From positions 1 through 64,000 of the forward strand of contig CADASN010000008.1 in the NCBI GenBank assembly GCA_902790635.1: a stretch of DNA of 64,000 nt. The letters run 5' to 3'. The position numbers and the translations under genes were made by a program. The notes beneath the pieces were generated by a model, which worked only from the letters and a program-made list of their open reading frames with translations, was not told the origin of the DNA and ran no database searches. The stretch comes from an uncultured Bacteroidia bacterium (GTDB lineage: Bacteria > Bacteroidota > Bacteroidia > Bacteroidales > UBA932). Shown piece after piece: positions 6,714 through 61,407 of this stretch (positions are counted from its first letter, which is position 1; each line of letters starts with the position of its first letter).

Positions 6714-7376
6714 CTAATCTGCAAAGACGATCTGCATCGCGGCGGCATCCGGCTGTTCGCCCGTCATCAGGGCGTAACCGGTGACGGCCTGCATGAGCAG
6801 CCAGTCGGCGCCGGAGATATAGCCCGGATGGGCGGAGAGGCAGGGGTCCTTGTAGTTCGCTTCCAGCAGATGGGCGCAGGCGAGCCGGTCCGCGCCTTCG
6901 GCAAATCGCGGCAGGGTGTAGATGATGACGTCCGCCTGCACGCCGCCGGTGATCTCCGCATGGCGGTAGAGCCGCGTGTCCAGGCCGAGATCTTCGGCCG
7001 CGGCGAGGGCGGCCTTGCCGGCTCCGCCGAAGCCGATCACGGCTGCCGTGCGGCATCCGAGCGGCTCCAGGAGCGCCTTCACACCCAGATAATCAGAATT
7101 ATAGGCCCGGGTCCCATCCGGGGTCTTCACCACGAGGTTGGTCGCCCCGACCCGTTCGCACTCGGGGCTTCGCCAGTCCACCCGCGCAAAGGCGTCGCCT
7201 TTGAACGGGGCGGTGACATTGATGGCCTTGTACTCCGAGAGAAAGCGGGCCCAGGCTTCCTCGAAATCCGGGGTCTGGATGAGGTCGTAGGGGTATTTCC
7301 CGCCATAGGCGGCGGTGAACAGCGCGGGGCTGAGCGAGTGGGCGATCGGGTGCCCGATGAGTCCGAACCTATCCAT
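6714..7376 (-). CDS. aroE: Shikimate dehydrogenase
   Basis: Reduces 3-dehydroshikimate to shikimate with NADPH. The 220-residue protein starts MDRFGLIGHPIAHSLSP, the classic substrate-binding start, followed by INVTAPFKGDAF with the catalytic Lys, NSDYLGVKALL, and the nucleotide-binding GFGGAGKAA. It is about 40-50 residues shorter than most AroE proteins, mainly in the cofactor domain. The start overlaps the end of the rRNA methyltransferase gene by 8 bp, making a probable lysS-trmH-aroE transcript. It faces aroK. Confidence 0.93.
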   Translation of the reverse strand: MDRFGLIGHPIAHSLSPALFTAAYGGKYPYDLIQTPDFEEAWARFLSEYKAINVTAPFKGDAFARVDWRSPECERVGATNLVVKTPDGTRAYNSDYLGVKALLEPLGCRTAAVIGFGGAGKAALAAAEDLGLDTRLYRHAEITGGVQADVIIYTLPRFAEGADRLACAHLLEANYKDPCLSAHPGYISGADWLLMQAVTGYALMTGEQPDAAAMQIVFAD

Positions 7377-8301
7377 CCTGGCGCTGTCTGACGGCTTCGA
7401 AAAGCAGGATGGCGGCCGAGACGGACACGTTGAGCGAGTCCAGACGGCCGAGCATCGGGATGCGGATGTGGGCGTCGGCGGCTTCGCGCCAGACGGGCGT
7501 GAGGCCCGTGGCCTCGGTGCCCATCACGAGGGCGGTGCCGACGGTCATGTCGCAGTCGTAGTAGAGGGAGGAATCCTGCAGCTGCGCCGTCAGGATGCGG
7601 ATGCCGCGCGCCTTCAGGAAGGCGATGGCGTCGGCCGAACTGCACGCCACGCACGGAACCGTGAACACGGCGCCGATCGATGCGCGGATCAGGTTCGGGT
7701 TCCAGAGGTCGGTCAGCGGGTCGCACACCAGCACCGCATCGGCTCCCGCGGCGTCCGCGCTGCGCAGCACAGCCCCCAGATTCCCCGGCTTCTCGACGCT
7801 CTCCAGCACCATGACCAGCGGATTCTCCGGCAGCACGATATCCTCCAGCCGCCGCTCCGGCGTCCGCACCTCCGCAATGATCCCTTCCGTCCCTTCCCGC
7901 ATCGCAATCTTCCGATACACCTCCTCACTGACCTCAAACACTTTCGTCTGCGACGAAGCGGAGTCGGCAGCAGCCTCGCCAGACCGTAACCACCCTCGGT
8001 TCGATAGAGGGAGGGGCCCGCTGGCGGATGGCCGATTGGCAGAAAGTTTACTTTCGGACAAGCGGTCAGACGACAGTGGGAAGGGTCCGACGCAGTCGGA
8101 CGTCTGGCGAGGCTGGCTGCCGCGAAGCGAAGTGCAGACGAAAACGCTGTCAATCTCGAAGCCCGCGTCAATGCAATGCTGGAGCTCCCGCTGTCCTTCG
8201 ACCACGAAAAGACCGCGCTCGCGCCGCGCAGAAGACTTCTGCTGCAGCGCGAGGAGCGTCTTGATCTTCGGATTCGAAGGCGATGTGATGAGCTCCGGCA
8301 T
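7369..8301 (-). CDS. TrmH/SpoU family RNA 2'-O-methyltransferase with inserted repeat peptide
   Basis: A SPOUT-fold enzyme that methylates a 2'-OH in rRNA or tRNA using S-adenosylmethionine. The N-terminal substrate-binding domain (SPSNPKIKTLLALQQK, FVVEGQRE) is followed by the three SpoU motifs: EKPGNLGAVLRSADAAG, LVMGTEATGL and IPMLGRLDSLNVSVSAAI. Residues about 53-120, between SVFVCTS and VFEVSEEVY, are an extra stretch (GSQPRQTS, GPLPLSNRGWLRSGEAAA) encoded by a palindromic element at 7942-8143; homologues as I recall them have a short linker here. The frame stays open, so the protein is probably made. The exact target nucleotide is unknown. Confidence 0.93.
   Translation of the reverse strand: MPELITSPSNPKIKTLLALQQKSSARRERGLFVVEGQRELQHCIDAGFEIDSVFVCTSLRGSQPRQTSDCVGPFPLSSDRLSESKLSANRPSASGPLPLSNRGWLRSGEAAADSASSQTKVFEVSEEVYRKIAMREGTEGIIAEVRTPERRLEDIVLPENPLVMVLESVEKPGNLGAVLRSADAAGADAVLVCDPLTDLWNPNLIRASIGAVFTVPCVACSSADAIAFLKARGIRILTAQLQDSSLYYDCDMTVGTALVMGTEATGLTPVWREAADAHIRIPMLGRLDSLNVSVSAAILLFEAVRQRQDG
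7942..8143 (-). repeat. In-frame palindromic element, copy A (inside the TrmH gene)
   Basis: A 202-bp inverted-repeat element. The outer arms are TTTCGTCTGC (7942-7951) and GCAGACGAAA (8134-8143). The inner arms are GGCAGCAGCCTCGCCAGAC (7966-7984) and GTCTGGCGAGGCTGGCTGCC (8102-8121), complementary except for one inserted base. Sub-hairpins GTCCGAC/GTCGGAC and GAAAGT/ACTTTC lie inside. Read in the gene's sense it encodes GSQPRQTS ... GPLPLSNRGWLRSGEAAA. Copy B lies at 60228-60387 in a gene on the other strand, in the same orientation and frame relative to its host gene. Confidence 0.85.
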
Positions 8302-56762: not shown

Positions 56763-58136
56763 ATGACCGGATCATACAACAAGGGATTCATTTATTTCAT
56801 CTGCCTCGTGTCGGCGATGGGCGGCCTGCTGTTCGGCTACGACTGGGTCGTGATCGGCGGGGCGGTCAAGTTTTACGAACAATTCTTCGGCCTGGGCGGG
56901 AACCCGGTCCTGCAGGGCATCGCCACGAGCGCAGCCCTGGTAGGCTGCATGGTGGGCGCGCTGACGGCGGGTGCGCTGGCGGACCGCTATGGCCGCAAGC
57001 CGCTCCTGATGGTCGCGGCCGTGCTTTTCACGGTCAGTGCCATCGCCACGGGCCTGTTCAATGACTTCTGGCTCTTCTGCATCGCGCGCCTCGTGGGCGG
57101 TGTGGGGATCGGCCTCGCGTCGGCCATCTCGCCGATGTACATTGCCGAAGTGTCGCCTTCGGACGTGCGCGGACGGCTGGTGAGCCTCAACCAGATGACC
57201 ATCGTGCTGGGCATCCTGGCGGCGCAGGTTGCGAACTGGGCGATCGCCCGGCCGGATGTCGGCGGACAGATCGATCCGTGGAATATCGAGATGGGCTGGC
57301 GCTGGATGTTCTGGGCGGAGACCGTCCCTGCGGCCGCTTTCCTTGTCCTGTCCTTCTTCATCCCGGAGAGTCCGCGCTGGACGGCGCTCAATGACCGCGT
57401 CGCGCAGGCGCGTTCCGTCCTTTCCCGCGTAGGCGGGGAGGCTTACGCCGAAGGCGAACTGGCGGCCATCGCCGCTTCCGTGGCAGACGCCCCGGAGAGC
57501 AAGGCCGGCCTGAAGGAGCTTTTCCGCAAACGCTACGCGCGGGTCCTGGCGCTCGGCATCATCATCGCCGTCTTCCAGCAGTGGTGCGGCACCAACGTGA
57601 TCTTCATCTACGCGCAGGAGGTCTTCGCCGGAGCGGGCTACACGGTCAGCGAGGCCTTCCTCAATATCATCGTGACGGGCATTGCGAACGTCATCTTCAC
57701 GATCCTGGCCCTGCAGGTCGTGGACCGCTGGGGCCGGCGCAAGCTGATGCTGCTGGGTTCGGGCGGACTCGCCCTGATCTATCTGGTCATGGGCCTGTGC
57801 TTCCGCGCGGGTGTGACGGGCATCGTGATGGTGCTGCTGACGGTGGCGGCCATCGCTTGCTATGCGATGACGCTGGCCCCCGTGACCTGGGTGCTCCTGT
57901 CGGAGATCTTCCCCAACCGCGTGCGCGGTATCGCGATGGCGGTCTGCACCTTTGCCCTGTGGGTGGGCAGCTGCACGCTGACCTTCGCCTTCCCGTCGAT
58001 GAACGCGGCACTGGGCTGCAGCGGCAGTTTCCTGATCTATGCCGCCATCTGCCTGTGCGGCTTCCTGTATTTCCTCAAGGCCTGTCCGGAGACCAAGGGC
58101 AAGAGCCTTGAACAACTTGAAAATGAATTGCAGTAA
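56763..58136 (+). CDS. Sugar porter family MFS transporter
   Basis: A 457-residue, 12-helix inner-membrane proton/sugar symporter. Family signatures are GGLLFGYDWVVIGGA in the first helix, ADRYGRKPLLM, the ISPMYIAEVSPSDVRGRLV motif, PESPRW before the central loop, and DRWGRRKLML. The context with GH106 and GH35 enzymes suggests rhamnose, galactose or a related sugar, but the sequence does not fix it. It lies 33 bp after the GH106 gene and 1 bp before the DUF5107 gene. Confidence 0.93.
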   Translation: MTGSYNKGFIYFICLVSAMGGLLFGYDWVVIGGAVKFYEQFFGLGGNPVLQGIATSAALVGCMVGALTAGALADRYGRKPLLMVAAVLFTVSAIATGLFNDFWLFCIARLVGGVGIGLASAISPMYIAEVSPSDVRGRLVSLNQMTIVLGILAAQVANWAIARPDVGGQIDPWNIEMGWRWMFWAETVPAAAFLVLSFFIPESPRWTALNDRVAQARSVLSRVGGEAYAEGELAAIAASVADAPESKAGLKELFRKRYARVLALGIIIAVFQQWCGTNVIFIYAQEVFAGAGYTVSEAFLNIIVTGIANVIFTILALQVVDRWGRRKLMLLGSGGLALIYLVMGLCFRAGVTGIVMVLLTVAAIACYAMTLAPVTWVLLSEIFPNRVRGIAMAVCTFALWVGSCTLTFAFPSMNAALGCSGSFLIYAAICLCGFLYFLKACPETKGKSLEQLENELQ

Positions 58137-58137
58137 G

Positions 58138-61100
58138 ATGGTCAAAGCCTGGAGAGAAACGGTCGTCATCCCGACCTATGAGGCCGGAGCGCCGGAGAAG
58201 AATCCGATTTTCCTGGAGAAACGCGTCTATCAGGGGAGCAGCGGCGTGGTCTATCCCTATCCCGTGATCGAGTCCATTGCGGACGAGAAACACGACAAGG
58301 CCTACCAGGCCGTCTGGCTGGAGAACGAGTATATCAAAGTCATGATCCTGCCGGAGCTTGGCGGACGCGTGCAGATGGCCTACGACAAGATCGCGCAGCG
58401 GCATTTCATCTACTACAACCAGGTGATCAAGCCGGCCCTGGTGGGTCTGGCGGGCCCCTGGATCAGCGGCGGCATCGAGTTCAACTGGCCGCAGCACCAC
58501 CGCCCGAGCACCTTCATGCCCGTGGACTGCACGATCGAGGAGCATCCGGACGGGAGCGTCACGGTGTGGTGCAACGAGATGGAGCGGATGTTCCACCAGC
58601 GTGCCCAGGCAGGCTTCACGCTGCGTCCCGGCTGCGCGTACCTGGAGATCCGCGGCATCCTCTCGAACCGGTCCGAACTGCCCCAGACCTTCCTGTGGTG
58701 GGCCAATCCGGCGGTGCACGTGAACGATGCCTACCAGAGCGTCTTTCCGCCGGACGTGAATGCCGTGTTCGACCACGGCAAGCGGGCGGTGAGCACTTTC
58801 CCCATCGCCACGGGGGTCTATTACAAGATGGACTACAGCGCCGGGGTGGACATCTCCAACTACAAGAACATCTACGTGCCGACTTCCTACATGATCGCCA
58901 AGTCGAAATATGATTTCGAGGGCGGCTACGAGAATGATACGCACGGCGGCATGCTGCACGTGGCGGACCACCGCTTCGCGCCGGGCAAGAAGCAGTGGAC
59001 CTGGGGGAACGGCGATTTCGGCCGCGCCTGGGACCGCAACCTCACCGACGAGGACGGCCCGTACATCGAACTGATGGCGGGCGTCTATACGGAGAACCAG
59101 CCGGATTTCAGCTGGCTGATGCCGGGCGAGGAGAAGTCATTCGTGCAGTATTTCTTCCCCTACCGGGAGCTGGGCGTCGTGAAGAACGCTTCCCGGGACG
59201 TGGTGCTCAACCTCGACCCTGCCGGTGCGGATGCGGCCCGCATCCGTGTGTTCACGACCTCACGTCAGGATCTGCGCATCGCGCTGACGGGTCCGGACGG
59301 GGCGGTGCTTTTCGAGCGCCAGCTCGTCCTGGGGCCGGAGCAGGTCTTCGACGAGACCGTGCCGACCGGCGGCGTGCCCTACGGGCAGCTGACGCTGCAG
59401 GCCGGGTCGCTGAGCTGGCATCCGGAGCCCGCCGACAGCGAGATCCCGCCGGCAGCGGAGGCGGCCCTGCGGCCGGAAGAGATCGCCACTTGCGAGCAGC
59501 TTTACCTCACGGGACTGCATCTGGAGCAGTACCGCCACGCGACCTGGAGTGCCAGGGATTACTATGAAGAAGCGCTGCGCCGCGATCCGCTCGATGTGCG
59601 CAACAACAACGCCCTGGGACTGTGGTACCTGCGCCGCGGACGCTTCGCACTGGCGGAGCCGTATCTCCGGACGGCCGTGAAGGTGCTGCAGAAGCGCAAT
59701 CTGAACCCTTACGACGGCGAGCCGCTCTACAACCTGGCGCTCTGCCTGCGGTATCAGGGATGCCTGTCCGAGGCCTATGACTGGTTCTGCAAGGCCGCAT
59801 GGAATGCCGCGTGGCAGGAACCGGCCTACCTGGCTTGCGCCCGCATCAGCTGTAGGGAAGGCCGCTGGGAGGACGCGCTCGGCGAGCTGGACCACGCCTT
59901 GTGGCGCGGCTGGCACAACCACCAGGCCCGCGCGCTCAAGGCTGCCGTGCTGCGCCGCCTGGGCCGCACGGACGAGGCTTCCGCCCTGATCGGCGAGTCG
60001 ATCGCGATCGACAAATTCAACTTCGGCTGCCTCTGGGTGCGTTGCCTGATGACGGGCAAGGGGCAGGATGCTTTCGCGCAGCTGATGCGCGGCGAGCCGG
60101 AGAACTACGACGAGATTGCGCTCGATTTCTGCGCCGCGGGCCTGTACGTCGAAGCCGACGCCCTCTGGGCCTTCGGCTCTTCGCGTCAGGCGCTCAGTGA
60201 GATGTCCTGCTACTACTGGAACTATTATCGTTCCTCCGCTCCGTCGCTTTGCGGCAGCCAGCCTCGCCAGACTTCCGGCTTCGCCGGACCCCTCCCGCCG
60301 CAAGGCGGCGGGCCCCTCCCTCTTACGAGCCGAGGGTGGCTACGGTCTGGCGAGGCTGCTGCCGTCGTCGCTCCACCGGAGGAACGACGGATTGCTTTCC
60401 CGAACCGCCTGGAGGCCATCGAGGTGCTGGGTGCGGCGGACGAAAAGGACGCGCGGGCGGCATGGCTGCTGGGCAACCTCTGGTACGACAAGCGCCAGTA
60501 CGAACCCGCAGAGGCCTGCTGGGAGCGCGCCGTAGCGGCGGATCCGGATTTCCCGGGCGCCTGGCGCTGCCTCGCACTCGTGCGCTACAACAAGCGCCGC
60601 GACATCCCCGGCGCCCTCGCCGCGATGGAGCGCGCCTACGCCCTCGACGAGTCCGACGCCCGCATCCTGATGGAGCTCGACCAGCTCTACAAAAAACTGG
60701 ACTACCCGGCGCAGGAGCGGCTGGACCGCCTGCAGGCCCATAGTGCGCAGGTGGAGAGCCGCGACGACCTGGTGCTCGAAGAGATCACCCTTCTCAACGA
60801 CCTCGGCCGCTATGAGGAGGCGCGGGAAAAGCTTGACGCCCACCGCTTCCATCCGTGGGAGGGTGGCGAAGGCAAGGTTCCGGCCCAGTACCAGCGCTGC
60901 CGCGTGGAAATGGCGAAGCGGGCGATGTCTGAAAAGCGCTGGGCGGACGCCATTGCGCTGCTGGAAGAGTGCCTCATCTACCCGGAGCATCTCGGCGAAG
61001 GGAAACTCTACGGGGCGCAGGAGCAGGATTTCCATTACTATCTGGGTTGCGCCTGGCAGGGTGCAGGCGATGCTTCAAAGGCCCGCGCTTGCTGGGAGCA

Positions 61101-61407
61101 GGGAGCCCGGGGCGACCTCAAGCCCGTGCCGGCGCTCTACTACAACGACGCCAAGCCCGAGAAGATTTATTACCAAGGCCTTTCCCTCGCAGCGCTGGGG
61201 CGCCGGGAGGAGGCGGAAGCCAAGTTCCGGATGCTGCTGGACTACGGCCGGGAGCATCGCGATGACGACGTGGTGATGGACTATTTCGCCGTATCCCTGC
61301 CCGATCTCGCCATCTGGGACGAAGACCTCAAGCTGCGCAATATTGCCCACTGCGACCTGATGGCCCGGCTGGGCCGGGAAGGGCTGGATTTGTTGGAAAA
61401 AGCTTAA
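58138..61407 (+). CDS. DUF5107 and tetratricopeptide protein with inserted repeat peptide
   Basis: A 1089-residue protein with no signal peptide. The N-terminal DUF5107 domain (residues about 30-330, with VMILPELGGRVQMAYDK and GPWISGGIEFNWPQHHRPST) is galactose-mutarotase-like and common in sugar clusters. Residues about 470-1060 carry TPR-like repeats (LYNLALCLRYQGCLSEAYDW; AAWLLGNLWYDKRQYEPAEA). Residues about 697-750, between CYYWNYYRS and PNRLEAIEVL, are encoded by palindromic element copy B and share GSQPRQTS and RGWLRSGEAAA with the TrmH protein. The ATG at 58138 follows the porter gene stop by 1 bp. Confidence 0.9.
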   Translation: MVKAWRETVVIPTYEAGAPEKNPIFLEKRVYQGSSGVVYPYPVIESIADEKHDKAYQAVWLENEYIKVMILPELGGRVQMAYDKIAQRHFIYYNQVIKPALVGLAGPWISGGIEFNWPQHHRPSTFMPVDCTIEEHPDGSVTVWCNEMERMFHQRAQAGFTLRPGCAYLEIRGILSNRSELPQTFLWWANPAVHVNDAYQSVFPPDVNAVFDHGKRAVSTFPIATGVYYKMDYSAGVDISNYKNIYVPTSYMIAKSKYDFEGGYENDTHGGMLHVADHRFAPGKKQWTWGNGDFGRAWDRNLTDEDGPYIELMAGVYTENQPDFSWLMPGEEKSFVQYFFPYRELGVVKNASRDVVLNLDPAGADAARIRVFTTSRQDLRIALTGPDGAVLFERQLVLGPEQVFDETVPTGGVPYGQLTLQAGSLSWHPEPADSEIPPAAEAALRPEEIATCEQLYLTGLHLEQYRHATWSARDYYEEALRRDPLDVRNNNALGLWYLRRGRFALAEPYLRTAVKVLQKRNLNPYDGEPLYNLALCLRYQGCLSEAYDWFCKAAWNAAWQEPAYLACARISCREGRWEDALGELDHALWRGWHNHQARALKAAVLRRLGRTDEASALIGESIAIDKFNFGCLWVRCLMTGKGQDAFAQLMRGEPENYDEIALDFCAAGLYVEADALWAFGSSRQALSEMSCYYWNYYRSSAPSLCGSQPRQTSGFAGPLPPQGGGPLPLTSRGWLRSGEAAAVVAPPEERRIAFPNRLEAIEVLGAADEKDARAAWLLGNLWYDKRQYEPAEACWERAVAADPDFPGAWRCLALVRYNKRRDIPGALAAMERAYALDESDARILMELDQLYKKLDYPAQERLDRLQAHSAQVESRDDLVLEEITLLNDLGRYEEAREKLDAHRFHPWEGGEGKVPAQYQRCRVEMAKRAMSEKRWADAIALLEECLIYPEHLGEGKLYGAQEQDFHYYLGCAWQGAGDASKARACWEQGARGDLKPVPALYYNDAKPEKIYYQGLSLAALGRREEAEAKFRMLLDYGREHRDDDVVMDYFAVSLPDLAIWDEDLKLRNIAHCDLMARLGREGLDLLEKA
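60228..60387 (+). repeat. In-frame palindromic element, copy B (inside the DUF5107 gene)
   Basis: A 160-bp inverted-repeat element. Outer arms TCGTTCCTCCG (60228-60238) and CGGAGGAACGA (60377-60387); inner core from GGCAGCCAGCCTCGCCAGAC (60253-60272) to GTCTGGCGAGGCTGCTGCC (60345-60363). Sub-hairpins TCCGGC/GCCGGA and CCGCC/GGCGG lie inside. Its coded peptide (GSQPRQTS ... GPLPLTSRGWLRSGEAAA) matches copy A at 7942-8143. The outer arms differ from those of copy A but still pair. Confidence 0.85.

Follow-up and report, generated by a model that had tools for sequence, protein, structure and literature searches.

A Dispersed REP-like Palindromic Element with a Conserved Tip and Copy-Specific Stem Arms Lies in Frame within Genes of Bacteroidales

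Introduction

A TrmH/SpoU-family methyltransferase gene in the 64-kb stretch of Bacteroidales DNA analysed here (the window) carries a long inverted repeat in frame between its two domains, which raises the question of how such a palindrome entered the gene and what keeps its arms complementary. A preliminary description of the locus compared the repeat with Rickettsia palindromic elements (RPEs), and named entry in a translatable frame as a phenomenon of Rickettsia that was not familiar from Bacteroidota. In-frame intragenic palindromes are not confined to Rickettsia. GTAG and CGTC repeats have been reported inside genes of several species, including those for UvrD/Rep helicase and DNA polymerase I (PMC3733652), and in-frame REP insertions were found inside tnpAREP genes of a subclass that is abundant in Cyanobacteria and Bacteroidetes (PMC6006769). 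Bacteroidetes RAYT subclasses were described with GTAG REPs or atypical structures (PMC6006769), and the available text of the other survey names Bacteroidetes for CGTC repeats, not for GTAG repeats (PMC3733652).

The Element in Two Genes of the Window

The methyltransferase gene (7369..8301, minus strand) is an open reading frame of 310 aa including the insert, which lies between the Pfam matches MRM3-like_sub_bind (residues 10-63) and SpoU_methylase (residues 162-301). The insert (copy 1; 7942..8143, minus strand), supported by its arms, its fold and a match to R1, the covariance model of the tip (7982-8096, minus strand, E 7.2e-11), is a nested inverted repeat of 202 bp that adds about 67 codons in frame, with its core strand on the coding strand. 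The outer arms are complementary at 10/10 positions: the arm that is 5' in coding orientation, TTTCGTCTGC (8134..8143, minus strand), was placed by sequence and homologues, and the 3' arm, GCAGACGAAA (7942..7951, minus strand), is its perfect inverted copy. The inner arms, of 20 nt on the 5' side (8102..8121, minus strand) and 19 nt on the 3' side (7966..7984, minus strand), differ by one extra base and pair perfectly over 14 nt. A conserved REP-like tip hairpin, termed hairpin C below, was located by BLAST match and sequence at 7984..8026 (minus strand), and its tag here is GTAA instead of GTAG. With DNA parameters, the 202-nt single strand is predicted to fold at -67.2 kcal/mol, versus -37.3 kcal/mol (sd 3.25) for 200 dinucleotide shuffles, 0/200 of which were as stable (z -9.2). 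The FVC codons, kept widely in TrmH homologues, fall in the 5' outer arm TTTCGTCTGC, and the relative L114 has GCAGGCGAAA in place of the GCAGACGAAA found here, one change short of perfect pairing.

Copy 2 (60244..60372, plus strand), found by BLAST, sequence and an R1 match (60278-60347, plus strand, E 9.8e-19), lies in frame, and in the same orientation to coding as copy 1, in a gene for a large TPR protein of 1122 aa including the insert (58039..61407, plus strand), with Pfam TPR matches flanking it on both sides. The tip model matches exactly two places in the window, namely these two copies. They have their inner arms in common; the outer ten bases differ between them, yet are matched within each copy. 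One relative of the TPR gene lacks the peptide and another has only half of it: L223 keeps the left arm and the first hairpin, the rest of the element is missing, and the frame is open. The outer left arm of the TPR gene aligns, with differences, to host sequence in L223. Thus, three statements of the preliminary description are borne out: an inverted repeat with these arms, an insertion into the TrmH gene that brings neither stop codon nor frameshift, and the same element in an unrelated gene of the window.

A Dispersed Family with a Conserved Tip

When the 202-bp copy was used as a BLAST query, 10 matches were obtained in its own genome, with two elements giving two each, and a 74-nt tip query gave 16 matches (E up to 10), with E below 1e-3 for 14. 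The covariance model, built from 35 tips, found 23 matches in the same genome, up to 46 per genome, and matches in 51/61 genomes searched within the window's genus. Across the order, at a stricter threshold, it matched 5/393 genomes drawn, the own genome being one of the five. Three genomes from other families of the order (G326, G476 and G506) have 3-9 matches each, which suggests horizontal transfer or patchy retention. A scan of a named genome collection for exact cores, with a 34-nt degenerate core pattern, yielded 86 copies in 85 contig stretches; among the best 80 of the 85, all titles are Bacteroidales or Bacteroidia, and many refer to rumen or other gut samples. Carriage by phages was considered and rejected, with 0 exact-core matches in viral_contigs.

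The preliminary description treated the element as a fixed sequence of 202 bp or 156 bp, and this has to be given up. What is conserved is a tip of three hairpins that caps a long stem; the stem arms differ among copies and match within a copy, stem and hairpin lengths vary, and the distance from arm to arm is mostly 104-181 bp. The copy-specific stem, absent from that description, is the most unusual part of the element. On the core strand, the tip reads hairpin A (often TCCGGCTTCGCCGGA, or of the CTTCGCTTCGC type), CCCCTCCC, the variable hairpin B, GGGCCCCTCCC, hairpin C and CTACG. Read as its reverse complement, hairpin C in most cases starts with GTAG directly before a stem, the mark by which GTAG REPs are described (PMC3733652, PMC6006769); among 15 own-genome copies read, nine have GTAG, one has GTGG, and five have neither (L001 with GTAA, L008, the second copy of L009, L017 and L018). 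All 86 exact-core copies carry GTAG because the search pattern required it. Hairpin C alone fits the 20-40 bp of a GTAG REP, for which the whole element is too long. In L101, L080, L063 and L100, hairpin B takes a longer form that includes an additional GAAGACAAGTCTTC-like hairpin. An autonomous long form with distant arms was also considered and rejected, as copies that lack close arms had no convincing distant partner.

Host Genes and Homologues without the Peptide

Many copies are intragenic, with the core in either orientation, and intergenic copies occur too. An automatic list gave a spanning frame for 41/101 copies, six copies being cut off; it includes spurious frames, such as opposite ones in L001 and L018, and the number of real hosts should not be read from it. 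Pfam was run on 20 host proteins picked, not at random, from the copies with spanning frames, and in 19/20 the matches lie on both sides of the insert or are split around it; in the L108 protein, only one side is matched. The 19 comprise TrmH, TPR, RibF, an RNase R-like RNB protein, an FAD-dependent protein (two elements), UvrD, an ABC transporter, GH9-deacetylase (two), ALDH, GH3 (two), IspH, KsgA, a metallo-beta-lactamase fold protein, TrmO, a class III aminotransferase, PurD and PolA. Where one family has two stretches, the Pfam table gives only the better one, and splitting of a domain was deduced from it; for ALDH and IspH, it was seen directly in a residue-by-residue comparison with solved structures. 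The ALDH of L034 has 44 residues where structure 6k0z has four. In L009, on the own contig C1, two elements in opposite orientations lie close together in frame in one gene for an FAD-dependent protein. The copies L061, L062, L067 and L107 are located right after a stop codon.

Two checks put forward in the preliminary description, a search for further copies and a search for homologues without the peptide, gave positive results; the former led to the dispersed family outlined above, and the latter succeeded for the TrmH, GH3, GH9-deacetylase and TPR genes. In the TrmH alignment of 29 relatives, three of them cut before the linker, six (L130, L135 and L138-L141) have short linkers without the peptide, which is shared by the orthologues L113 and L114. 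GH3 proteins of G020, G083 and G093 lack it, with query residues 253 and 294 abutting without a gap. For the GH9-deacetylase gene, 0/20 loci of relatives listed have the peptide, L202 with a broken frame being among them. Element-free sites were also found between genes (L096/L069 and L102/L041).

Both the TrmH linker and the GH3 linker are hot spots where other species have different palindromic inserts, in both orientations. At the GH3 site, the core runs in coding orientation in L236-L239 and in the opposite one in L240 and L242, as it does in the variant copies L241, L243, L244 and L246 by reading the letters. Sister GH3 genes with different element variants have flanks that are 93% (L237/L243) and 96% (L239/L254) identical. 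A flip of the element in place is plausible in the GH3 gene, and turnover by re-insertion competes with it. Because related elements replace one another fast at this linker, re-insertion may account for part of the differences between orthologous copies. L254 itself, with flanks 96% identical to L239, holds part of one element beside a different variant, which suggests rapid turnover. At the TrmH linker, L117, L132 and L134 carry other in-frame repeats, tandem APRDDNNEG and those of the VIPSxxEES / CHSERSEES type, and hence this linker accepts several unrelated repeat families.

Matching of the Stem Arms and Pairing in the Tip

We scored the arms of the 76/86 copies with full flanks, and found that the best match between left and right arm had a median score of 19.5 within a copy versus 8 for swapped partners. 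Arm families share inner sequence (e.g., CAGGCTCTGGCAGTCCAGAC), and the outer bases are copy-specific, match over 8-11 bases or more in many copies, and can overlap host codons. In an apparent orthologue of the own L006 host gene, the element of G015 has outer bases that differ from those of L006. That the arms derive from the target in every copy was considered and rejected: in L096/L069 and L102/L041, the empty site lacks the arms, and host capture of arm sequence is therefore not general. No direct target duplication was noticed, by eye, in these two empty-site pairs.

Comparison of orthologous copies revealed changes on both sides of the stem. The left arm of L088 is the exact inverse of its own right arm, whereas in the orthologue L028 that arm is imperfect, as is usual; this is the one clear case of clustered arm-to-arm conversion. 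Concerted two-sided changes were found in L039/L055 and in L061/L062/L067/L107. Ten of 16 orthologous pairs were kept for counting, and they showed 9 concerted versus 11 broken base pairs; a concerted/broken ratio of 0.03 would be expected if the arms changed independently at the mean flank divergence (17%). The other six (L077/L108, L101/L104, L029/L071, L038/L063, L028/L088 and L031/L036) were dropped because their flanks were too dissimilar, their orientations opposite or their arms not in register. All 16 comparisons together, in which pairs share sequences, gave 18 concerted and 32 broken, with G-T in 7/32 of the latter. In L031/L036, the whole stem of 27-34 nt differs at the same site in two species and is largely palindromic in each, and neither arm could be singled out as the template.

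The tip was analysed in the alignment of 35 tips, which are related sequences, and whose search pattern constrained part of hairpin C and not hairpin B. There, 64 cells had changed on both sides of a pair and 0 had a one-sided change to another standard pair, versus at most 9 two-sided changes in controls with slid partners; 88.5% of the cells were paired, versus at most 54% with partners slid. Hairpin C has one position that is unpaired throughout. Five of the variable pairs account for 63 two-sided changes, with no G-T or T-G on the modelled strand. The remaining one, pair 26-42, is A-C in 20/35 copies, A-T in 14 and G-C in 1, and A-C is G-T on the other strand. A wobble-type intermediate is thus not absent everywhere, and the A-C pair counts against the reading that we prefer below. 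Overall, the pattern suits DNA hairpins or template-directed correction more than an RNA under selection, and is short of proof.

RAYT-like Transposases

A RAYT profile (A2) built from 16 sequences matched in 48/51 element-bearing versus 2/10 element-free genomes (Fisher p 2.3e-6, a value that ignores kinship), and the plain Pfam Y1 model matched in 44/51 and 1/10, respectively. In the own genome, which is 83% complete, neither a Y1 transposase nor a RAYT-like gene was found. In the genus, two distinct-looking types of Y1_Tnp protein of about 300 aa occur, several per genome (L172-L191).

Around the transposase genes, 20 Y1_Tnp loci gave 0 elements at E up to 1, and ten further RAYT loci gave none but one weak partial match at the edge (L218, E 0.0012). 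In G015, an element lies 0.85 kb from a RAYT gene, on one side only and inside the neighbouring gene. The two genes there (L256:1160-2191 and L256:2326-3276) are adjacent, the element-bearing one being the apparent L006-host orthologue mentioned above. This neighbourhood probably reflects gene order rather than a REPtron. A RAYT gene with the element as its flanks was looked for as well, and none among the RAYT genes examined has an element on both sides.

Relation to Known Repeats

GTAG REPs and REPINs with their RAYT transposases resemble the element in the short GTAG hairpin, the dispersed copies and the in-frame intragenic copies (PMC3733652, PMC6006769), and RAYT-like proteins are frequent in the genus that bears it. 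Unlike those repeats, the element is a compound hairpin, in most copies 104-181 bp long and with a copy-specific stem, and none of the RAYT genes examined is flanked by it. The likeness to RPEs, proposed in the preliminary description, holds for the way of working: palindromic DNA lies in a translatable frame within many unrelated genes, in frame in 19/20 of the chosen hosts. It does not extend to membership. R. conorii RPE sequences end in CGTC (Di Nocera 2013, PMC3733652), whereas the usual tag here is GTAG; the phylum is another one, and the stem here is variable with a conserved tip. The element works like RPEs and is not one of them.

Two further systems share features of the stem. Homogenised arms and inverted spacers are among the reported products of template switching in coding DNA (PMC8604942), and the process has been described as creating and repairing perfect stems (PMC8794818). 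Such quasipalindromes are alike in their homogenised arms, and perhaps in inverted spacers, within genes; in the available text the inverted repeats are not described as mobile, whereas here a dispersed element supplies the hairpin repeatedly. Long inverted repeats within functional coding sequence are also known from the mitochondria of Nematomorpha (PMC6649704), but both arms there encode conserved protein regions and the available text invokes no mobile element. We found no description of the element, or of GTAG palindromes in Bacteroidales genes, in the open-access literature, most of the subscription literature lying outside the search. The kind of repeat is already known, and the element is a new, unusual form of it.

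Origin of the Element and Rival Explanations

We consider it probable that the element is a dispersed, non-autonomous REP-like element that is mobilised by RAYT-type enzymes, is tolerated in protein linkers, and has its arms homogenised by template switching at replication. On the opposite strand, hairpin C is usually a GTAG stem-loop of the type that REP-associated HUH transposases (RAYT/TnpAREP) recognise, and the co-occurrence with RAYT genes suggests that such an enzyme mobilises the element, most likely in the form of single-stranded DNA. Copies usually leave at least one frame open, and those landing in linkers or loops may survive as an extra peptide. After insertion, the arms may be kept or made complementary by template switching (quasipalindrome correction); homogenisation of this kind would explain why arms differ among copies and match within a copy, and why outer arms can take in host codons. 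A bolder version is a self-palindromising mobile element, in which only the tip is inherited and replication through the hairpin copies one arm, including adjacent host codons, onto the other again and again. We regard this version as possible, with the doubts outweighing the support; if it is true, the host gene builds the stem of the element, and the linkers of many housekeeping enzymes are being remodelled.

The family is of interest in several respects. It offers many natural in-frame insertions in conserved enzymes (UvrD, PolA, PurD, IspH, KsgA, an RNB-domain RNase and the TrmH family), and element-free homologues of some hosts make the tolerance and the cost of insertion measurable. If template switching writes the stems, the family serves as a naturally occurring assay of this kind of mutation in bacteria; it would also help to separate compensatory change at the DNA level from that at the RNA level, which bears on covariation as evidence for structured RNA.

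Template switching is an economical cause of arm matching, and selection for the hairpin is its main rival. The stem could be kept by selection on a structured RNA, such as a terminator, an mRNA stabiliser or a regulatory hairpin, with arm matching as ordinary compensatory evolution. The very stable fold of copy 1, the four copies right after a stop codon, and the A-C pair, which would be G-U if the other strand were transcribed, agree with this explanation, and selection for a hairpin could yield the concerted changes as well. Nevertheless, we hold it to be unlikely. The common view is that compensatory change proceeds by way of G-U (PMC8794818), and the five other variable pairs have no such intermediate on the modelled strand; many copies lie in coding sequence in either orientation with no common RNA role apparent. 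A search of five loci also gave no Rfam match at E up to 0.1, which argues against a known RNA family.

The long inverted repeats at the ends, with inner arms that are common within element subfamilies, would suit a MITE, non-autonomous and dependent on a conventional transposase. The arms would then be its terminal repeats, and the outer arms palindromes that arose by chance or already stood at preferred targets. In such an element the terminal inverted repeats should be conserved, whereas here the ends vary between copies while the tip is conserved, and target duplication was not noticed by eye at the two empty-site pairs. We rate this origin as rather improbable. That the peptide is a conserved functional extension, with no insertion at all, seems very improbable. 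It is in frame and common to some orthologues (TrmH L113 and L114; the GH3 set), but unrelated genes, with the core in both orientations, and intergenic regions contain DNA related to it, the solved ALDH structure has four residues at the place of the insert, and the reading is refuted by the element-free homologues of TrmH, GH9-deacetylase and GH3. An artefact of metagenome assembly or binning is hardly credible: the exact-core titles, among the matches listed, are MAGs or uncultured-bacterium assemblies, but orthologous copies at the same site, with flanks about 80-90% identical, occur in separately named assemblies.
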